64,000 nucleotides of DNA from Streptomyces yatensis (lineage in GTDB: Bacteria; Actinomycetota; Actinomycetes; Streptomycetales; Streptomycetaceae), in the NCBI RefSeq assembly GCF_018069625.1, contig NZ_CP072941.1:1550001-1614000 (forward strand). The letters run 5' to 3'. How positions within the stretch are numbered: position 1 is the stretch's first letter; every line of letters begins with the position of its first letter. The notes under the pieces are model-generated. The model saw only the letters and a list, made by a program, of their open reading frames with translations, searched no databases and was not told the origin of the DNA. This document shows, one piece after another, positions 32,732-64,000 of this stretch. A program made the translations under genes and the position numbers.

Positions 32732-33337
32732 GGTCTGGGGCCGCAGCCCCGACTGCGGGCCTGGAACGCAGCCCCGGGCGCGCGGCCTGGACCTCGGCCC
32801 CAGTTGCGGGGCCTGGAGCTCCGAACTCCGCCCCGGGTGCAGGGCCTGGGACGCAGCCCCGGGCGCGCGGCCTGGAACTCCGCCCCAGGTGCGTGGCATG
32901 GGACGCAGCCCCAGGTGCGGCGGCCTAGAACTCCGCCCCAGGTGCGGAGCCTGGGGCACAGCCCCGGCTGCGCGGCCTGGGACGCAGCCCCGGGCACACA
33001 GCCTGGAACTCCGCCCCGCCTGCCGGACCTGAGGCGCAGCCCCAGGTCCGGGGCATGGGGCACAGCCCGGGCGCGCGGCCCGGAACTCCGCCCCAGCTGC
33101 CGGACCTGAGGCGCAGCCCCAGGTGCGCGGCCTGAAACTCCGCCCCAGCTGCGGAGCCTGGGGCACAGCCCCGGATGCGCGGCCTGGGACGCAGCCCCAG
33201 GTGCGCAGCCTGAAACTCCGCCCCGCCTGCCGGACCTGAGGCGCAGCCCCGGATGCGCAGCCTGGGGCGCAGCCCCAGTTGCCGAGCCTGGGGCGCAGCC
33301 CCAGTTGCCGAGCCTGGGGCGGAGCTCCAGTTGTGGG
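32732..33337. repeat. Array of about 22 degenerate 26-bp hairpin units
   Basis: Units such as CCTGGGGCGCAGCCCCAGTT + GCCGAG repeat at a 26-bp period; three successive copies begin at 33261, 33287 and 33313. Two alternating variants exist: ...ACGCAGCCCC... and ...AACTCCGCCCC.... Each unit contains a GGGGC...GCCCC mini-hairpin like that of the flanking REP-like elements, so the array may have grown from one. Confidence 0.88.
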
Positions 33338-46295: not shown

Positions 46296-47801
46296 ATGAG
46301 GCAACAGACCCACAAACGCGGGCGGTTCACCAATAAGACCGTCGCCATCGTCGCCGCCCTGGCGCTCGGCGGCGGCGGGGCCGCGATCATCGCCGCCAAC
46401 GCGTCCGCCCACGGCGACAAGGGCGACTCCGGCCAGAACCACACCGTGGCCGCGAAGGCGGGGACGATCCAGTGCCCCGATGTGGGGCAGAAGCTGAGTG
46501 ATGTGCCGGAGAAGGCCAGGCCCGAGGTCGACAAGAACCTGGCCGAGCTGGACAACCAGGTGGCCAAGGCCTACCAGCAGATGAACCAGCAGCAGGGTTC
46601 GAGCGACGCGGTGCTCTCCAAGCTCAACGACGAGCGCTCCCGGACGATGGACAACATCGGTTCTGCCATGGGCGGCGACAACTCCCAGCTGCAGGGGATG
46701 AACGACTGCAAGTGGCAGGAGATCGCCACCCAGGGCGGTCAGCAGCAGGGTGGTCAGCAGCAAGGCGGCGACCAGCAAGGCGACCAGCAAGGCGACCAGC
46801 AGAGTGGTCAGCAGGGCGGCGGCGACCAGCAGGGCGGCGACCAGCAAGGCGGCGGCGACCAGGGCGGCGAGGGCGCCAACGAGGTGCCCGGCAACGCGGG
46901 CGGCCAGGCGGGCAACGGTCCCTCGCAGGACGACTTCGTCGACATCACCAAGGTGCAGCCGAACGTCCAGCAGCCGCCGCAGGCCCAGCAGAACGGCTCC
47001 AGCGGCACCTTCACCACCGAGTGCGGCGTCGGCGACCCCAAACTGCGCAACAGCGACAACGTGATCGTCGCGCCCGGTGTCGGCAACGGCGCTCACCACA
47101 CCCACGACTACGTGGGCAACGACAGCAACGACGCCTTCGCCAACAACCAGACCTTCGAGCAGGGCGGCACCTCCTGCGAGAACCAGGACGACAAGTCGAC
47201 CTACTACTGGCCGGTGGTCCGCGCCCAGGACGGCAAGGACGAGGCGGACGCCAATGAGCTCGGCGGTGGCCAGGAGGGCAACGTCGGCACGATCCTGACC
47301 CCCACCAGCTCCAAGATCGAGTTCAAGGGCAACGCGCAGAGCAAGGTCACCGCGATGCCGAAGTTCCTGCGCATCATCACCGGTGACGCCAAGGCGTTCA
47401 CCAACGGCGACGCCAACGCCAACGCCTCCTGGAGCTGCACCGGCTTCGAGGACCGGCAGCTGACCGACAAGTACCCGCTCTGCCCCGAGGGCAGCTCCGT
47501 CACCCGGACCTTCGACTTCCAGAGCTGCTGGGACGGCAAGAACATCGACAGCGCCAACCACCGTGACCACGTGGCCTTCGCGAACGAGGACGGCTCCTGC
47601 CCCAACGGCTTCCAGGCCATCCCGCAGCTGGTGAACACGATCACCTACGATGTGCCGGCCAACACCCCGTTCGCCGTGGACGGCTTCCCCGAGCAGTTGC
47701 ACAAGCCCATCACCGACCACGACGACTTCATCAACGTGATGTCGGAGGACCTGATGAACGAGGCGGTGGACTGCATCAACAGCGGCAAGCAGTGCGGCTG
47801 A
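46296..47801 (+). CDS. DUF1996 secreted protein with Gln/Gly repeat
   Basis: A 501-residue exported protein. A signal peptide (NKTVAIVAALALGGGGAAII) is followed by a helical region with several Gln/Gly repeats (QQQGGQQQGGDQQGDQQGDQ, about 147-190). A conserved DUF1996 domain (about 225-500) contains DNVIVAPGVGNGAHHTHDYV (His cluster), STYYWPVVRAQDGKD, NASWSCTGF, CPEGSSVTRTFDFQSCWDGK, NHRDHVAF and LDINSG-like DCINSGKQCG. Several His/Cys pairs suggest metal or disulphide use. No activity is known for the family, which occurs in fungi and actinomycetes and may act on cell walls or glycans. Its TGA overlaps the sigma factor's ATG (TGATG). Confidence 0.9.
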   Translation: MRQQTHKRGRFTNKTVAIVAALALGGGGAAIIAANASAHGDKGDSGQNHTVAAKAGTIQCPDVGQKLSDVPEKARPEVDKNLAELDNQVAKAYQQMNQQQGSSDAVLSKLNDERSRTMDNIGSAMGGDNSQLQGMNDCKWQEIATQGGQQQGGQQQGGDQQGDQQGDQQSGQQGGGDQQGGDQQGGGDQGGEGANEVPGNAGGQAGNGPSQDDFVDITKVQPNVQQPPQAQQNGSSGTFTTECGVGDPKLRNSDNVIVAPGVGNGAHHTHDYVGNDSNDAFANNQTFEQGGTSCENQDDKSTYYWPVVRAQDGKDEADANELGGGQEGNVGTILTPTSSKIEFKGNAQSKVTAMPKFLRIITGDAKAFTNGDANANASWSCTGFEDRQLTDKYPLCPEGSSVTRTFDFQSCWDGKNIDSANHRDHVAFANEDGSCPNGFQAIPQLVNTITYDVPANTPFAVDGFPEQLHKPITDHDDFINVMSEDLMNEAVDCINSGKQCG

Positions 47802-56611: not shown

Positions 56612-57253
56612 GTGCAAGAACGGGCCGAGCAAACACGCCGATCCCTTCTGGAGGCCGCCGCGTTCCTTTTCGACGAACGGGGATACGCCGGCACGAGCAT
56701 CAGCGACATCACCGCCCGGTCCGGTCACACCAGCGGCGCCATCTATTTCCATTACACGAGCAAGGAAAGGCTCGCCCTCGCCGTGGTGGAGGAACACTTC
56801 GCCACCTGGCCCCCGCTGATCGAGCGCTACACCGCCCTCGACGCGCCGCCCCTGGAGCAACTGGTGCGCCTCAGCTTCGCGGTGGCCCGCGCCTTCCGCG
56901 ATGACCTCGTGGTCCGCGCCGGGGCCCGGCTGTGGACCGAGCGCACCCTGATCGAAGCGCCCATGCCACCGCCCTTCGTGGGGTGGATGGACGCCGTGGG
57001 GCAGATGATGGAGAAGGCCCGGGCCGAGGGCGATCTGGCCCCGCATGTCGATCCGCTGCCCGCCGCCCGGACCGTCGTCTTCGCCTTCTTCGGGCTGCAC
57101 ACCGTCTCCGAGGCCCTCGACGGGCGGCGGCTGGTCGAGGACCATCTGGCCGATCTGTGGACCCTGCTGCTGCCCTCGCTCCAGGCCCGGCCCGGGGACA
57201 CCGCGAGGCTGCTGGCGCTCGCCCGCCCGGACACCCCGCCCCCGTCAGAGTGA
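56612..57253 (+). CDS. scbR: Gamma-butyrolactone receptor, ArpA/ScbR-like TetR
   Basis: A 213-residue TetR-family receptor. The N-terminal HTH is RAEQTRRSLLEAAAFLFDER, GYAGTSISDITARSGHTSGA and IYFHYTSKERLALAVVEEHF, very close to ArpA/ScbR. The ligand domain keeps the pocket Trp (ATWPPLIERY; GARLWTERTLIEAPMPPPF). It represses target genes until a gamma-butyrolactone binds. GTG 56612 follows GAAGGA. Divergent from the AfsA-like gene, so mutual regulation is expected. The last nine bases overlap the 3' end of the convergent SDR gene. Symbol by family. Confidence 0.93.
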   Translation: MQERAEQTRRSLLEAAAFLFDERGYAGTSISDITARSGHTSGAIYFHYTSKERLALAVVEEHFATWPPLIERYTALDAPPLEQLVRLSFAVARAFRDDLVVRAGARLWTERTLIEAPMPPPFVGWMDAVGQMMEKARAEGDLAPHVDPLPAARTVVFAFFGLHTVSEALDGRRLVEDHLADLWTLLLPSLQARPGDTARLLALARPDTPPPSE

Positions 57254-57928
57254 GGCGCCCGCGCACATCACCAGCGTCTGCCCGGTGACCGCGCCGCCCT
57301 CCGGGCCCAGCAGGAACGACGTCAGCCCCGCCACCTCCTCGGGACGGACCAGCCGGCCCAGCGGTGGCAGCACCGGCGGGGTGCCGGCGCGGCCCGGATC
57401 GCGCAGCATGGGGGTGTCCGTGGGCCCGGGCGCCACCACGTTGACCGTGACCGCCCGGGGCGCCAGCTCGGCGGCCCAGGACCGGGCCAGGGCGGGCAGC
57501 GCGGCCTTGGTGGCGGCGTACTGGCTCTTGCCCGGCACGCCCGTCATCGTGCGGCTGCCCACCAGCACCACCCGGCCGCCGTCCGCCACCCGGTCCACCA
57601 GCGTGTCGACCAGGACGCCCGCCGCCTGCACATGGATCCGCCACATGAGCGACCCGTCCTCGGGCGCCAGCTCCCCCAGCCACGCCGAGCGCTGAACGCC
57701 CGCCGCGTGCACGATCGCGTCCACCCCGGACACCGGGCCGAGCACCTCGGGGAGCTCCTCCGGCCGGGACAGATCGGCCGGGATCCAGTGCAGCCCCGCG
57801 ACCGGGCGCGCCGGGGCCGTACGGCTGATCCCGGTGATCCGCCACCCCTCCTCCAGCAGCCGGGTGGCGATCGCGGCGCCGATGCCGGAGCTGACACCGG
57901 TGACCACGGCGTGCCGGGGCTCAGACAT
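57245..57928 (-). CDS. Short-chain dehydrogenase/reductase
   Basis: A 227-residue SDR. The NAD(P) loop is AVVTGVSSGIGAAIATRLLE, then VHAAGVQ in place of NNAG, catalytic Ser in VLVGSRTMTG and YxxxK in GKSQYAATKAALPALAR, with PGPTDTPM. The ATG at 57928 overlaps the sialidase-like stop by eight bases, which ties it to that operon. But it also abuts the ArpA-like gene 3' to 3' and may equally be the ketoreductase that makes the gamma-butyrolactone hydroxyl (as BarS1 or ScbB do). Either role is possible from sequence. Confidence 0.9.
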   Translation of the reverse strand: MSEPRHAVVTGVSSGIGAAIATRLLEEGWRITGISRTAPARPVAGLHWIPADLSRPEELPEVLGPVSGVDAIVHAAGVQRSAWLGELAPEDGSLMWRIHVQAAGVLVDTLVDRVADGGRVVLVGSRTMTGVPGKSQYAATKAALPALARSWAAELAPRAVTVNVVAPGPTDTPMLRDPGRAGTPPVLPPLGRLVRPEEVAGLTSFLLGPEGGAVTGQTLVMCAGASL

Positions 57929-59126
57929 CGGCCGCCCAATCCGGTGTGACCCGGACGTACTTGATGGCCCGGCGGTGGTAGGTGTACGCGATGTGCAGCG
58001 TGCCGTCATCGCCCTGTCGGATGGTGGGGTAGGACAGCTCGCGGTTGAGCCGGTCGCGTGAGTTGTTGGTCAGGCAGTGGCCGTCGCCGGTGTCCAGATC
58101 GCGCCGTACGGGCCAGGTCAGGCCGTTGTCGGAGGAGAGCGCGAGGGTCATCGGTGCGCGCGGCGCGCCCCAGAAGGCACCGGGTGCCGCGTCGTCCCGC
58201 GAGGCGGCCGGGGCGGGGGGCTCTCCGGTCCGTCCCTCGTCGTCGATCTCGTCGTAGAGGGAGACGCGGCGGGCCGTGGCATCGGCCCGGCTGCTGTGGT
58301 TGTAGACCAGTGCGAGCCGTCCGTCGGCGAGCGGGACGTACTGCACGGAGGAGTTGTTGTTGGGCAGTTCGGTGCGGACCGGCTCACTCCAGGTCTCCCC
58401 GCCGTCGGTGCTGTGCGCGCGGTGGACCGCGTCCGCCCAGCGGCTGCGGAAGAGGGCCAGCACGGTGGTGTCCGGCAGTTGGTGGACGTTCATGTGCACA
58501 CAGCCGGTCGAGCCGGGCACGGGCCGCTCGCGCCAGGTCCGCCCCTGGTCGTCGCTGATCATCACCGCGCTGGTGTCGTGGTCGCCGACCCACTTGACCC
58601 CGGGGGTGGCCACGCAGTGGAACACCGGCAGCAGCCATCGCCCGGAGTCCAGGACGGCCACCGGCTGACGGATGAACACCCCGCCCGCCTCGGTGGCCGG
58701 GAAGAGGGTGCGCGGCGCGCCCCAGGTGGCGCCCGCGTCGGCGGACACCCGCAGCCGGACCTCCGCCGTGTCCTGGTCGCCAGCCCGCTGGGCGGTGTAG
58801 AGCAGCCACAGCTCCCCGGCCGGGGTGGGGAACAGCAGCGGGTTCTGCTCCGAGCGGGTGTCGTCGCCGGAGAGCCGGACCGGCTCGGTCCAGGTGCCGG
58901 ACCCGGGGGCGAGCCGGGAGAACCACACGGAGATGTCCGGTACGCCCTCCTGGGTGCCGCCGAACCACACACAGCCGAGGTCCCCGCCCGGCAGCACGGT
59001 GAGATTGGCGGCGTGGTTCTGGACGGCGGGCGCCGGCAGGAACGCCTCCTGGCGCGCCGGGTCGCCCGGGCGCGGCCGGAGCCGGCCGTCCGTCGGCGGC
59101 ATCGCGGTGTCATGGTCGGCGGTCAT
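57921..59126 (-). CDS. Exo-sialidase-like protein (BNR/six-blade propeller)
   Basis: A 401-residue non-secreted sialidase-fold protein. BNR/Asp-box-like blocks recur: SADAGATWGAPRTLFP, SDDQGRTWRERPVPG, STDGGETWSEPVRTELPNNN and SSDNGLTWPVRRD (SxDxGxTW). Conserved blocks include NHAANLTVLPGGDLGCVWFG, EQNPLLFPTPAGELWLLYTA and RQGDDGTLHIAYTYHRRAIK. ATG 59126 is chosen (GAGGAG 11 bases upstream). No signal peptide, so it probably acts in the cytosol on an imported glycoside, or has an unrelated activity. Overlaps the SDR gene by eight bases. Confidence 0.85.
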   Translation of the reverse strand: MTADHDTAMPPTDGRLRPRPGDPARQEAFLPAPAVQNHAANLTVLPGGDLGCVWFGGTQEGVPDISVWFSRLAPGSGTWTEPVRLSGDDTRSEQNPLLFPTPAGELWLLYTAQRAGDQDTAEVRLRVSADAGATWGAPRTLFPATEAGGVFIRQPVAVLDSGRWLLPVFHCVATPGVKWVGDHDTSAVMISDDQGRTWRERPVPGSTGCVHMNVHQLPDTTVLALFRSRWADAVHRAHSTDGGETWSEPVRTELPNNNSSVQYVPLADGRLALVYNHSSRADATARRVSLYDEIDDEGRTGEPPAPAASRDDAAPGAFWGAPRAPMTLALSSDNGLTWPVRRDLDTGDGHCLTNNSRDRLNRELSYPTIRQGDDGTLHIAYTYHRRAIKYVRVTPDWAADV

Positions 59127-59257
59127 GGGCGCCGGGCTCCTCGTGGTTGCGGGGTTACGGGGATGTCCGCGGTCGGGGCCGCAAGGCACCGACCGACCGG
59201 GCCGCGCGGCCCGATGCCCCTCCGGAACCCCGGTCCGGAAGGACTCGCCCGAAGGGC

Positions 59258-59313
59258 GTTCGGGGTCCAGGGGCGGAGCCCCTTGGTTCGGGAAGGGGCG
59301 GGGTGGGGGAAAA
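59258..59313 (+). repeat. REP-like element, copy 2, between AKR and sialidase
   Basis: GGGGTCCAGGGGCGGAGCCC, CTTGGTTCGGGAAGGGGCGG and GGTGGGGG closely match the reverse complement of 32628-32675. The core AGGGGC-GGA-GCCCCT (59269-59283) is a perfect hairpin. An extra GCCC-GAA-GGGC hairpin lies just upstream. It sits within an operon and may attenuate or stabilise the mRNA. Confidence 0.75.
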
Positions 59314-59321
59314 CCACCGGC

Positions 59322-60350
59322 CTACCGGTTGTACGCGGGCATCGGGCCACGCAGCCGCGCGCCCACCTCGTCGCACGCCGCCGTCACATCCGCCGGAAGA
59401 GGGCCCGCGGACGCGGCGGCCAGATTGGCGCGGAGGTGTTCCACGCGGGAGCCGCCGAGCAGCAGCGCGTCCACCCCGTCCCGGCCGAGCAGCCAGCGCA
59501 GCGAGAGGTCGACGAGCGGGATGCCCGCCTCCTCGGCGATCCCGGACAGGGTCCGTACGGCCTCGAAGAGCCCGGCGTCCCAGTAGCGCTGCCGGTACAT
59601 GGCGGCCACCCGGGAGTCGCCGAAACGGCCCGACTCCGGCTGCTCCTCGAAGGTGTGACGGCCCGTCAGCAGCCCGCCGCCGAGCGGGTTGTAGACCATG
59701 GTGCGCAGTCCGCTGGTGGCGGCGTACGCCGCGTATTCCACGTATTCCTCCTCAATACGCCGCGCCAACAGGTTGTAGAGCTGCTGGGCCACCACCGGGC
59801 GCGGCGCGCCGACCCGTTCGGCGGTGTGGGTGATCTCGGCGATCTGCCAGGCGGCGTAGTTGGAGACGCCGAGCGCCCGGATCTTGCCCTCGGCCACGAA
59901 CTCGGCGACCGTGCCCAGCGTCTCCTCCAGCGGCGTGGAGCGGTCGGGCTGGTGCAGATAGAACAGGTCGACATGGTCGGTGCCCAGGCGGCGCAGGCTG
60001 CCTTCGAGGGCCGCGCGCATCCCGCGCGCGGACAGCGGTGAGTTCTCGCCGGCGTCGGGGTGCGGCATGCCGGCCTTGGTGGCGAGCACGATCCGGTCGC
60101 GCCGGCCGGGGAGCAGCTCGGCCAGGATCGTCTCGGTGGCGCCGCCCGCGTAGGCGTTGGCGGTGTCCACCCCGGTCACCCCGGCGTCCAGCGCGGTGTC
60201 CAGCATCGCGGCGGCGCCCGCGCGGTCCACCGTGTCGCCGAAGGTCATGGTGCCCAGCACCAGCCGCGAGAGCGGCACCGGGATCCCCGGCAGGGCGACC
60301 CCACCGGGCGACGCCTGGGTGGTGGTGTGGGGCTGCGGATGCGCGTTCAC
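59322..60350 (-). CDS. Aldo/keto reductase
   Basis: A 342-residue NAD(P)H-dependent (alpha/beta)8 oxidoreductase. Signatures: RLVLGTMTFGDTVDRAG, the tetrad Asp/Tyr in GVDTANAYAGGATETILAEL, the Lys in IVLATKAGMP, the His in HVDLFYLHQPDRSTPLEETL, and GKIRALGVSNYAAWQ. The C-terminal nucleotide contacts are in GGSRVEHLRANL. GTG at 60350 overlaps the ABC ATPase stop (GTGA). It is in the sialidase-like/ABC transporter operon and probably oxidises or reduces the released sugar. Substrate not readable. Confidence 0.92.
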   Translation of the reverse strand: MNAHPQPHTTTQASPGGVALPGIPVPLSRLVLGTMTFGDTVDRAGAAAMLDTALDAGVTGVDTANAYAGGATETILAELLPGRRDRIVLATKAGMPHPDAGENSPLSARGMRAALEGSLRRLGTDHVDLFYLHQPDRSTPLEETLGTVAEFVAEGKIRALGVSNYAAWQIAEITHTAERVGAPRPVVAQQLYNLLARRIEEEYVEYAAYAATSGLRTMVYNPLGGGLLTGRHTFEEQPESGRFGDSRVAAMYRQRYWDAGLFEAVRTLSGIAEEAGIPLVDLSLRWLLGRDGVDALLLGGSRVEHLRANLAAASAGPLPADVTAACDEVGARLRGPMPAYNR

Positions 60351-61189
60351 TGCGTTGCTCCTGGTTCCTGGTCGGTCGCGATCGCGGATACGAGGGCGCG
60401 CGGTTTGCGTCCCCGCATGGTCGTCGGGTCGAGCGCCGCCCGTCGCAGCGCCCTGGTGTACGGGTCGGCGGGCGCGGAGAGCACCGTGCCGGTCGGCCCG
60501 GACTCGATGATCCTCCCGGCGCGCATCACCACCACCTCGGAGCTGATCTCGCGGACCACTCCGAGGTTGTGGGAGATGACGATGTAGGCGAGCCCCTGCT
60601 CGGCCTGGAGTTCCCGCAGCAGCTGGAGCACCTGGGCCTGTACGGAGACGTCCAGCGCGGAGGTGGCCTCGTCGCACACCAGCAGTTCGGGGCCGGCGGC
60701 CAGGGCGCGCGCGATGCCGATCCGCTGGCGCTGACCGCCGGAGAACTCGGCCGGGCGCCGCTGGAGCGCGCCGGAGTCCAGCCCCACCTGGTCGATGAGG
60801 ACGGCGGCGCGGCGGGCGCGTTCGGCCCGTGAGCGCATGCCGTTGAGCCTCAGCGGCTCGGCCACGATCTCCTCGGCCGTCAGATGCGGGTCCAGCGAGC
60901 CGTACGGATCCTGGAAGACCATCTGCACTCGCTTGCGCAGCGGGCGCAGCCGCCGCTCGGGCAGGCCCGCGATATCGGTTCCGTCGAGGAGGATCCGACC
61001 CTGGGTGGGGCGCAGCAGGCGGACGAGGGAGCGGGCGACGGTGGACTTGCCGCAGCCGGATTCGCCGACGACGCCGAGCGCCCCACCGGGCGGGACGCAG
61101 AAGCTGACGCCGTCCACCGCGCGGAAGACACCGCCGGGGACCGGGTATTCGACCACCAGGTCCTCGACGGCCAGCAGGGGTGTGGTCAC
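60347..61189 (-). CDS. Oligopeptide-type ABC transporter ATPase, OppF/DppF-like
   Basis: A 280-residue ATP-binding subunit. Walker A is LGVVGESGCGKSTVARSLVR, Q-loop MVFQDPYGSLDPHLTAEEI, ABC signature FSGGQRQRIGIARALA, Walker B ELLVCDEATSALDVSVQAQ and H-loop VISHNLGVVREIS, all intact. ATG 61189 overlaps the stop of the OppD-like gene (ATGA). With the OppD-like subunit it would power the DppB/DppC permeases for uptake of a peptide, or in this context a glycoside. Downstream it overlaps the aldo/keto reductase. Confidence 0.94.
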   Translation of the reverse strand: MTTPLLAVEDLVVEYPVPGGVFRAVDGVSFCVPPGGALGVVGESGCGKSTVARSLVRLLRPTQGRILLDGTDIAGLPERRLRPLRKRVQMVFQDPYGSLDPHLTAEEIVAEPLRLNGMRSRAERARRAAVLIDQVGLDSGALQRRPAEFSGGQRQRIGIARALAAGPELLVCDEATSALDVSVQAQVLQLLRELQAEQGLAYIVISHNLGVVREISSEVVVMRAGRIIESGPTGTVLSAPADPYTRALRRAALDPTTMRGRKPRALVSAIATDQEPGATQ

Positions 61190-62793
61190 AGCGCCTCCTC
61201 GGTGGCGGTGGCGGTGGCGGCTGCGGTGGCGCCTGCTGGGGCGGTGGCGCCTGCTGGGGCGGTGGCGCCTGCTGGGGCGGTGGCGCCTGCTGGGGCGGTG
61301 GCGCCTGCTGGGGCTGGGGTCTCGTGCCAGGGGCCCAGGGTGGGCACGGCGGCGAGCAGATCGCGGGTGTACCGCTCGCGGGGGTGGTCCACGATCTGTT
61401 CGACCGGCCCCGACTCCACGAAGCGGCCGCCGCGCATGACGTGGATGCGGTCGGAGACCAACCGGGCCACGCCCAGATCGTGGGTGATCATCAGGATGCC
61501 GATGCCGGTGCGCTCCTGGAGCTCCATCAGCAGGTCGAGGACGCCTGCCTGGACGGTGACGTCGAGCGCGGAGGTCGGCTCGTCGGCCACCAGCAGCCGG
61601 GGCTCGGCGGCCAGCGCGATGGCGATGAGGACGCGCTGCAGCATGCCGCCGGAGAACTGGTGGGGGTAGGCGCCCCAGCGGGTCTCGGGGTGGGGGATCC
61701 GTACCCGGCCGAGCAGTTCGACGCCCTTGGCGCGGGCGTCGGCGCGGGTCATGCCCGGGTGGCGCAGCCGGAGCGCCTCGCCCAGCTGGCGGCCGATGGT
61801 GTGCACCGGACTGAGCGCGGTCATCGGGTCCTGCGGGACCAGGGACACCCCGCGGCCGCGGATCCGCCCGGCCGCCTTGGGGTCGGCGATGACGTCGGCG
61901 CCGAAGATCCGGGCCGTCCCGGAGAGGACGGCGAGCCCGTCGGGCAGCAGCCGCAGCAGGCCCATCGCGGTGGTGGACTTGCCGGAGCCGGACTCGCCGA
62001 TGATCGTCACCGTCTCGCCGGGGCCGATGGTGAAGCCGACCCCGTCGACCGCGCGCACCACCCCGCGGTCGGTGATCAGCTCGATCTGCAGGTCCTCGAC
62101 CTCCACCAGGGGGTCCGGGGCGCGGGTGTCGCGGGGGTCGGGGGTGCCGTTGGTGTCGGGGGCGCCGCGGGTGTCGCGGGCGCCGTCGGCGCCGTTCGTG
62201 TCGCGGGCGGCGTCGGTGCCGCGGGGGCCGTCGGTGCCGTTGGTGTCGTTGGTCTCGCGGGTGCCGTCGGCGCCGTCGGTGTCGCGGGGGCCGTCCGTAT
62301 CGCGGGGGCCGTTGGTGTCGCGAGGGCCGCGGATGCCGCGGGCGCCGTCAGTGCCGTCGGTGTCGCGGGCGGCGTCGGTGTCGTTGGCGTCGCGGGAGCC
62401 GCTGGCGCCGTCGGTGTCGCGGGGGCCGTTGGTATCGCGGGCGCCGCGGATGCCGCGGGCGCCGTCAGTGCCGTCGGTGCCGCGGGCGCCGTCAGTGTCG
62501 CGGGCAGCGTCGGCGCCGTCGATGTCGCGGGAGCCGCTGGCGCCGTCGATGTCGCGGAGGCCGTTGGTATCGCGGGCGCCGCGGATGCCGCGGGCGCCGT
62601 CAGTGCCGTTGGCGTCGCGGGCGCCGTTGGCGTCGCGGGCGCCATTGGCGTCGCGGGCGCCATCGGTGTCGCGGGCGCCATCGGTGTCGCGGGTGTCGCG
62701 GGCGCCGTCGACGCCATTCGTGTCGCGGGCGGCGTCGGTGCCGTCGGTGTCGCGGGCGCCGTTGGCGCCGTCGGTGTCGCGGGTTTCGCTCAT
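61186..62793 (-). CDS. OppD/DppD-like ABC ATPase with 228-residue repeat extension
   Basis: A 535-residue protein. From residue 229 (LVEVEDLQIELITDRGVV) it is a normal ATPase: Walker A ETVTIIGESGSGKSTTAMGL, Q-loop LVPQDPMTALSPVHTIG, signature FSGGMLQRVLIAIALA, Walker B RLLVADEPTSALDVTVQAG and H-loop MITHDLGVARLV. The first 228 residues are degenerate (A/P)RDTDG/ARDTNG-type repeats (GARDTDGARDANGARDANGA), almost certainly disordered. The C-terminus has five APAGAT units. ATG 62793 is the only start in the frame consistent with the overlap to the upstream permease (ATGA). GTGs inside the repeat could give a shorter form. Confidence 0.88.
   Translation of the reverse strand: MSETRDTDGANGARDTDGTDAARDTNGVDGARDTRDTDGARDTDGARDANGARDANGARDANGTDGARGIRGARDTNGLRDIDGASGSRDIDGADAARDTDGARGTDGTDGARGIRGARDTNGPRDTDGASGSRDANDTDAARDTDGTDGARGIRGPRDTNGPRDTDGPRDTDGADGTRETNDTNGTDGPRGTDAARDTNGADGARDTRGAPDTNGTPDPRDTRAPDPLVEVEDLQIELITDRGVVRAVDGVGFTIGPGETVTIIGESGSGKSTTAMGLLRLLPDGLAVLSGTARIFGADVIADPKAAGRIRGRGVSLVPQDPMTALSPVHTIGRQLGEALRLRHPGMTRADARAKGVELLGRVRIPHPETRWGAYPHQFSGGMLQRVLIAIALAAEPRLLVADEPTSALDVTVQAGVLDLLMELQERTGIGILMITHDLGVARLVSDRIHVMRGGRFVESGPVEQIVDHPRERYTRDLLAAVPTLGPWHETPAPAGATAPAGATAPAGATAPAGATAPAGATAAATATATEEAL
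61225..61314. repeat. Five perfect 18-bp repeats in the ATPase C-terminus
   Basis: GGTGGCGCCTGCTGGGGC occurs five times without mismatch (61225, 61243, 61261, 61279, 61297), encoding APAGAT hexapeptides on the minus strand. Perfect identity implies recent slippage. Confidence 0.95.
62110..62790. repeat. In-frame minisatellite encoding RDTDG/RDTNG repeats
   Basis: About 680 bp of GC-rich degenerate in-frame repeats (core GTGTCGCGGG/GCCGTCGGTG). A higher-order copy starting GCCGCGGATGCCGCGGGCGC recurs at 62326, 62443 and 62578, spaced 117 and 135 bp, both multiples of three. Codes the ATPase N-terminal extension. Confidence 0.9.
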
Positions 62794-63749
62794 CGGGAGC
62801 CCTCCGTCGCACGTCGGCGGGTACGGTCGCGCAGTCCGTCGCCCAGCAGATTGACCCCGACCACCAGCAGCACGATGACGAGGCCGGGCAGGGTCACCAG
62901 CCACCAGGAGGTGGTGATGTAGTCCTGGCCGTCGGAGATGATCCGGCCCCAGGTGGCGAACGGCCGCTGGGGGCCCGCGCCGAGGTAGCTCAGCGCGCTC
63001 TCCAGCAGCACCGCCTGGGCGAGCAGCAGCAGGACCACGAGCGAGGCCTGGCGGACGATGTTGGGGATGATGTGGCGGGCCAGGATGGCGATCCGGGGCA
63101 GCCCCAGCACCTGGGCGGCGGCCACATACGGCTTCTCCCGCTCGACCAGCACCAGGGACCGGGTCAGCCGGGCCACCTCGGGCCACTGGGCGATCGCGAT
63201 GACGCAGGTGATGACGGTGACGGAGGGGCCGAAGAGGGCCACCACGAGCAGCAGCATCATCAGCAGCGGCAGCGACATCTGGGCCTCCAGCAGGCGGGAG
63301 ACGACGGCGTCCACCCAGCGGCCGTAGTACCCGGCGGCGGCGCCCGCGACGATGCCGATGAGGCCGGAGACGACGACGGCGAGCACACCGATCGACAGCG
63401 AGACCTGGCCGCCGTGCAGCACCCGCGAGAGCACATCGCGGCCGAGCTGGTCGGTGCCGAGGAGATGGCCGTCGGTCAGCGGGGCCAGCCGGCGCCGGGA
63501 GAGGTCCTGGTCGCCCGCGCCGGGCAGCGGCAGCACCTGGGCGAGGGCGACGGGAACCACCACCAGCAGGGTGCACACCGCGCCCGCCCACAGTTTCAGG
63601 CTCGCGCTGCGGCGGCGCCGGGTGGCGGTGGCGCGCGCCAGGTCCCTGGCGGTGACGGCGCTGGGCCGGGGCGCGGGGCCGGACTTCGCGGGGGCCGGGG
63701 GTTCGGCGGGGGCCGGGGGTTCGGCGGGGGTTTCGAGGGCGCCTTTCAT
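62790..63749 (-). CDS. Oligopeptide-type ABC permease, OppC/DppC-like
   Basis: A 319-residue inner-membrane permease. The N-terminus has a Pro/Ala repeat (PAEPPAPAEPPAPAKSG) before the first helix (VCTLLVVVPVALAQVL). Then come HLLGTDQLGRDVLSRVLHGG (DppC signature), SIGVLAVVVSGLIGIVAGAA, the EAA loop YVAAAQVLGLPRIAILARHI and QPRPFATWG-type GAGPQRPFATWGRIISDGQD. ATG 63749 is one base from the DppB-like stop, so they are coupled. Carries the solute through the membrane with DppB. Confidence 0.93.
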   Translation of the reverse strand: MKGALETPAEPPAPAEPPAPAKSGPAPRPSAVTARDLARATATRRRRSASLKLWAGAVCTLLVVVPVALAQVLPLPGAGDQDLSRRRLAPLTDGHLLGTDQLGRDVLSRVLHGGQVSLSIGVLAVVVSGLIGIVAGAAAGYYGRWVDAVVSRLLEAQMSLPLLMMLLLVVALFGPSVTVITCVIAIAQWPEVARLTRSLVLVEREKPYVAAAQVLGLPRIAILARHIIPNIVRQASLVVLLLLAQAVLLESALSYLGAGPQRPFATWGRIISDGQDYITTSWWLVTLPGLVIVLLVVGVNLLGDGLRDRTRRRATEGSR

Positions 63750-63750
63750 C

Positions 63751-64000
63751 TCAGGCCGCCTTTCCCAGGCGTACCCGCGGATCGAGCAGCGGGTAGGCCA
63801 GGTCGATGAGGAGTTGGACGAGGACCGCCAGGGCGGCGGTGACCAGGACGGTCGCCTGGATCAGCGGATAGTCGCGGGTCTCCAGGGCGCGGACGACCAG
63901 CGAGCCGACACCGGGCCAGCCGAAGACCACCTCGACCACCACGACGCCGTTGAGCATGGCGGCGAAGCGGGTGCCGAGCGCGGTGAGCACCGGGATGGCG
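63751..64000 (-). CDS. Oligopeptide-type ABC permease, OppB/DppB-like, N-terminus beyond window
   Basis: The last 82 or so residues of a DppB-like permease: LTALGTRFAAMLNGVVVVEV, VFGWPGVGSLVVRALETRDY, PLIQATVLVTAALAVLVQLL and IDLAYPLLDPRVRLGKAA. VVVVEVVFGWPGVGSLVV is the signature motif near the end of DppB. The gene runs past 64000; the rest of the operon, including a binding protein, should lie beyond. Confidence 0.93.
   Translation of the reverse strand, partial: AIPVLTALGTRFAAMLNGVVVVEVVFGWPGVGSLVVRALETRDYPLIQATVLVTAALAVLVQLLIDLAYPLLDPRVRLGKAA

Follow-up and report, generated by a model that had tools for sequence, protein, structure and literature searches.

Minisatellites within bacterial coding sequences, or intragenic VNTRs, are a well-known class: their units keep the reading frame, their copy number changes between strains, and the resulting protein segment is disordered. 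Familiar cases lie mostly in surface or secreted proteins. Here we describe two such arrays in Streptomyces yatensis, carried at both ends of a cytoplasmic transporter ATPase encoded in a 64,000-nucleotide stretch of DNA (the window). They are an extreme case of this known type, the coding minisatellite in a disordered terminus. Among the papers listed by a literature search, none dealt with such tails on transporter ATPases of Streptomyces; this is weak evidence of absence, subscription papers being poorly covered.

Importers of the Opp/Dpp type (peptide/nickel class) comprise a family-5 binding protein, two permeases and two ATPases encoded by adjoining genes. The S. yatensis locus is arranged likewise (Table 1). 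The ATPase gene overlaps the permease gene on one side and that of its partner ATPase on the other, both joints being formed by overlapping start and stop codons, and the first permease and a family-5 binding protein lie upstream, outside the window. The first-pass annotation had the open reading frame right in strand and coordinates: 535 aa, from an ATG at 62793 to a TGA ending at 61186. PF00005 matches residues 250-408 (E 3e-22), and the protein contains GESGSGKST, SGGML, LLVADEP and ITHD, which we take to be the Walker A, signature, Walker B and H-loop motifs; nearly all of their residues are invariant or at least 90% conserved among 30 aligned proteins. The best NCBIfam matches are OppD, GsiA, YejF, NikD and DppD-type models, all under their curated cut-offs. 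Unlike that of Opp/Dpp ATPases, the C-terminal oligo_HPY region (PF08352) is partial, covering profile positions 1-42 of 65 at 24.5 bits, under the Pfam cut-off of 27.1; the precomputed PF08352 label is borne by about 98 of 120 homologues among the matches listed (counted by eye). The domain with its motifs and the gene neighbours both fit, and on this basis the ATPase would belong to the Opp/Dpp-type ABC importers. Mycobacterial OppD (Rv1281c, 8j5q) and DppD (8wd9) align from their residues 4-9 onward with the S. yatensis protein from 229-230, and only the latter has a 228-aa repeat tail at the N-terminus and a 44-aa repeat tail at the C-terminus. Further neighbours of the transporter are a BNR_2 sialidase-like gene (57921-59189, minus strand), an SDR gene (57245-58009) and an aldo/keto reductase gene reaching to about 60338. 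The BNR and reductase genes recur near the operon in six relatives, with a partial reductase match in two of them (G120 and G204).

Table 1. Features of the ATPase locus and its surroundings (window positions, except for the kinase relative).
Feature	Position	Strand	Remarks
Opp/Dpp-type ABC transporter ATPase (DppD/OppD-like), 535 aa	61186..62793	-	ABC_tran PF00005; mycobacterial OppD/DppD are the best PDB matches
Second permease, Opp/Dpp C type	62790..63749	-	same operon; stop overlaps ATPase start (ATGA)
Partner ABC ATPase (DppF/OppF-like)	60347..61189	-	start overlaps ATPase stop
N-terminal linker slot: in-frame minisatellite, 9-bp base unit, 18/27/117/135-bp higher-order copies	62110..62793	-	codons 1-228
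Higher-order copy 1, residues 52-93	62515..62640	-	pairs with residues 97-138, lag 135 bp, 90.5% identity
Higher-order copy 2, residues 97-138	62380..62505	-	
Higher-order copy 3, residues 136-169	62287..62388	-	pairs with residues 97-130, lag 117 bp, 88.3% identity
Conserved ATPase core, residues 229-491	61321..62109	-	pLDDT mostly above 85
C-terminal tail array: five perfect 18-bp copies, APAGAT, residues 494-523	61223..61314	-	
18-bp repeat in permease N-terminus (EPPAPA)	63673..63730	-	one copy more than G079 and G189
Four-carbon acid-sugar (threonate-type) kinase relative	L132:13363-16143	+	about 2.4-5.1 kb past the right end of the window

The N-terminal tail had been described as 228 residues of an RDTDG/RDTNG-type repeat. 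The array itself stands; the proposed unit turns out to be a composite of a 9-bp, three-codon unit. Read from codon 2, a tripeptide register [R/D/N][G/D][T/A/P/I] runs unbroken over 75 units, the first position being mostly R, D or N, the second mostly G or D and the third mostly T or A. Because a single register is held for 75 tripeptides, 9 bp is the base unit. Larger blocks recur on top of this unit, and the higher-order copies reported at 62578, 62443 and 62326 are spaced exactly by the 135- and 117-bp lags. Tandem Repeats Finder scores the array at 534 in the window and at 581 when excised, compared with a maximum of 213 and a mean of 91 for 100 codon shuffles; the ATPase core scores 0. 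The copies have diverged, with 65-81% matches across overlapping Tandem Repeats Finder rows. Raw counts over six overlapping, non-independent pairs of block segments give 9 synonymous and 39 nonsynonymous codon differences, and since the differences are mostly amino acid-changing, purifying selection on the repeat residues is not visible. The D/G/R/A/T/N alphabet, the 9-bp register and a near-constant C at third positions nevertheless persist across all 228 codons, which could reflect some constraint on composition.

Other identities were considered for the N-terminal array and rejected. Besides itself, the array has 15 DNA matches in its own genome, all weak (best E 2.8e-7 over 47 bp; longest about 300 bp at 70%; one in the permease N-terminus), which speaks against a mobile origin. 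The plus strand is open across it, with frames of 580 and 375 aa, as is normal for a stop-free repeat with a codon-sized period, and no antisense gene is proposed. An RNA element was dismissed as well: Rfam has no match at gathering scores within 57000-64000, and the RNA of the array folds barely better than its shuffled versions do (z -1.74; 1 of 20 equal or better).

At the other end of the protein, the five perfect 18-bp APAGAT repeats of the first-pass annotation were recovered exactly (Tandem Repeats Finder period 18, 5.1 copies, 100% matches). Both base units, 9 and 18 bp, are in frame and, as claimed, multiples of three; the tandem in-frame units exceed chance, as in coding minisatellites. 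The two arrays had also been called unrelated, which is true of their units; both, however, occupy slots that vary among relatives. Pfam Collagen matches the tail, centred on APAGAT, at 32.5 bits (cut-off 27.2). This was set aside as a similarity of low complexity.

Between the tails lies a core of ordinary appearance. Compared with the nearest relative (G079, 99% identical), it has 15 synonymous and 3 nonsynonymous codon differences, and 13 of 176 four-fold sites differ (about 7% divergence); the core is intact and, judged from its codon differences, under purifying selection. Disorder of the extensions, suggested earlier, agrees with AlphaFold modelling on 30 sequences, in which both tails are predicted to be unstructured: pLDDT is below 50 at residues 1-224 and 487-535, and about 27-38 per 10-residue block over residues 1-220.

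How unusual the tails are can be judged from relatives. Among 392 genomes of the genus, 18 including that of S. yatensis have a match to the ATPase at E <= 1e-95; four matches from a further search of 323 genus genomes were all already in this set. Linker lengths were obtained for 14 of the 18 loci, those without a recognisable ATGA or GTGA start (L025, L029, L034 and L035) being left out; L024, with an X stretch in its C-tail, was left out of the tail lengths. Seven of the genomes, at 90-100% identity, form a clade set in which the ATPase frame is intact throughout and the linker before the core measures 228 aa in S. yatensis and 39, 30, 24, 18, 12 and 11 aa in the others. That of G079 reads MSDTRDTRDTRDTRDTRDTRDTSDPRGTHDTSDTGAPGP; here six RDT units follow one another, and their 9-bp register is that of the S. 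yatensis array. No relative found has an allele intermediate between the 39- and 228-aa linkers. Proteins give a similar picture. Of 129 homologues (P0001-P0129), 96 could be parsed and 33 failed a motif or length filter; in the 95 parsed proteins other than that of S. yatensis, the linker has a median of 12 aa (range 3-54) and the tail, 44 aa in S. yatensis, a median of 11 aa (range 7-99). "Very rare", as such extensions had been called, is accordingly fair for this N-terminus, as none of the 95 exceeds 54 aa. It is too strong in general: the C-tail of P0090 is repetitive over 99 aa, and the S. yatensis genome frequently shows arrays of comparable strength. P0059 shares such a 99-aa tail with P0090 (cores alike by eye), and judging from the protein sequences the two appear to be one repeat in two frames; the C-tail may therefore tolerate a change of frame.

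Homologues from the S. hygroscopicus/violaceusniger group (P0002-P0009) share 252-253 of 263 core residues with the S. yatensis ATPase. They have the same two variable slots, with micro-repeats (SDT, TPASA) in some, and linkers of 9-24 aa and tails of 11-32 aa, against 228 and 44 aa. Several pairs differ in little else. P0002 and P0003, identical in 263 of 263 core residues, differ in tail length (32 against 22 aa); P0003 and P0005 (262 of 263) have linkers of 18 and 15 aa, one SDT apart; and P0004 and P0006 (262 of 263) have linkers of 9 and 15 aa, six residues apart. Repeat copy number varies between near-identical related strains, as in a VNTR. The expectation that the extensions would be length-variable was borne out for strains with near-identical cores and for species, S. 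yatensis itself being represented by a single genome. By eye, P0123 (S. antimycoticus) opens with a 24-aa linker in a similar style. Two low-identity matches, P0122 and P0124, are multi-module ATPases.

The reading we favour, at a probability of roughly 85%, is that in-frame minisatellites expanded in two flexible, unconstrained ends of an Opp/Dpp ATPase with an intact core, giving nearly neutral disordered tails. The seed would have been a short 9-bp Arg-Asp-Thr array of the kind still visible in G079. It would have lengthened to about 75 units in multiples of 9 bp, probably through slippage or unequal recombination, with point diversification and amplification of 117-135-bp blocks, and the C-terminal 18-bp array would have arisen separately. 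Either process, acting on a terminus that tolerates it, accounts for the register, the one-unit steps between strains and the block structure. Selection would maintain frame and core and leave the repeat sequence free, and for this reason the tails are most likely nearly neutral. We infer the direction of growth and the copying mechanism from these comparisons; the long protein is presumably produced and presumably works normally in transport. What counts against the expansion is how far the linker would have had to grow, 39 to 228 aa, over about 7% divergence at four-fold sites.

Arrays of this strength are not confined to the locus. In 1.2 Mb sampled from the S. yatensis genome as 60 pieces, 49 arrays score at least 150 (28 with a period divisible by three) and seven at least 450 (six, about 5 per Mb), a period divisible by three being a stand-in for coding position; at least one array (L163, 51 bp) looks to be of an intergenic type. 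At a score of at least 150 and with 380-400 kb sampled per genome, densities are 27.5 per Mb in S. yatensis, 28.9 in G079 (19 of 20 pieces, the one holding the ATPase locus, L091, being left out) and 12.5 and 10.0 in two other Streptomyces genomes; with two genomes per side, too few for the purpose, we claim no effect of clade. The densest of the 60 pieces, among the top arrays listed, is L149 (G000:C1:5300001-5320000, that is, S. yatensis itself), with five arrays scoring at least 250 in 20 kb. The window also holds about 22 copies of a 26-bp repeat at 32738-33325 (52-bp higher order, not a codon multiple), a GC-rich unit partly similar to it recurring with a 26-bp period at L055:9813-10213, and a short tandem array at 46743-46870 with periods of 12, 15 and 54 bp. 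Slipped loops of at least 9 bp may escape any mismatch repair. A NucS C-terminal domain was found in the S. yatensis genome, and a MutL domain, looked for in the same genome, was not; NucS lends the mechanism weak support, because 9-bp loops may evade other repair too. PMC8228993 states that the NucS mismatch repair pathway of Actinobacteria leaves indels uncorrected, and PMC11109965 reports no considerable change in indel rate on loss of NucS in Streptomyces ambofaciens; the indels in both studies were short ones.

Two rival accounts would take the long N-terminus out of the protein or out of the genome. Translation could begin at about residue 228-230, making the repeat an untranslated or spurious leader, and there is indeed a GTG in frame at codon 230; the linkers of homologues are also mostly short. 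However, L229, invariant across the 30 aligned proteins, would be removed by a start at 230, which counts against it, and nothing resembling a Shine-Dalgarno sequence directly precedes that codon. Inside the repeat, too, a start has nothing to use, as no in-frame ATG, GTG or TTG occurs between codons 1 and 230. The upstream start context, CGTGCGACGGAGGGCTCCCG-ATGAGCGA, with its ATGA overlapping the permease stop, is shared letter for letter with G079; the other five clade relatives show one to a few base changes in it, the GGAGGG stretch and the ATGA overlap being conserved in the clade. Translation very probably starts at 62793, to judge from this context, and the downstream start, on which the first-pass annotation would have given up the extension, is the least probable of all the readings. 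It had named assembly error in the same way, and we consider a wrong array length or content very improbable, if slightly less so than the downstream start. Long GC-rich arrays are prone to such errors, and the five identical C-terminal copies could have been miscounted. The assembly, by contrast, is a single contig of 10,360,357 bases (10.36 Mb; completeness 100, contamination 0.6), the frame is intact over 684 bp and relatives have related shorter arrays. Above all, the copies of the N-terminal array have diverged and are not duplicates of one unit, so that error is unlikely there.

The remaining alternatives accept the tails and give them a use. They might be disordered linkers of tunable length, selected cluster-wide, through which the uptake system adjusts its assembly, turnover or localisation; the presence of arrays in several genes of the cluster (both ends of the ATPase, the permease N-terminus and a neighbouring kinase) and the intact ATPase frame in seven of seven clade genomes speak for this. 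The kinase relative reads as 927 aa with SBD_N and NBD_C domains, its match to a D-threonate kinase model being far under the cut-off; a PdxA-type dehydrogenase gene lies beside it, both outside the window and divergent to the transporter operon. These neighbours suggest a possible link to acid-sugar catabolism. The kinase gene has in-frame repeats of 144 bp (3.5 copies) and 48 bp (3.2 copies) between and inside its domains; counted from the methionine before the conserved ADDLSG motif, the shortest product among the seven clade genomes has 539 aa and the longest 883, and in the six that could be parsed (G204 left out) the linkers are long and differ in repeat content. With the two ATPase arrays excluded, the 19-kb cluster holds two strong arrays of period divisible by three where 0.44 are expected (P about 0.07), an excess that is suggestive and not significant. 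This weakens the case for functional tails, as do the absence of a purifying signal on the repeat residues, the variation of unit sequence, length and apparently even frame (P0059/P0090) among relatives, and a median linker of only 12 aa in the parsed homologues. We regard such a function as improbable. Slightly less probable again is the wider proposal that the uptake and kinase genes together form a hot spot in which species-specific repeat linkers are selected as fast-evolving tuning elements; if it were true, disordered tails on proteins that work together would tune acid-sugar or peptide uptake.

Under the preferred reading, expansion of nearly neutral minisatellites at the two ends of the ATPase, the repeat tails are nothing out of the ordinary in kind, being one more form of genome drift. 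The locus makes it possible to follow how a coding minisatellite may originate, from a 9-bp seed in the sister species through one-unit steps between strains with near-identical cores to a 75-unit array with higher-order blocks, the ATPase itself staying almost unchanged. It is also a warning to gene callers and to models that trust such N-termini. For the family, it means that an Opp/Dpp ATPase gene can keep its reading frame and its conservation while carrying a tail of almost the length of the core.
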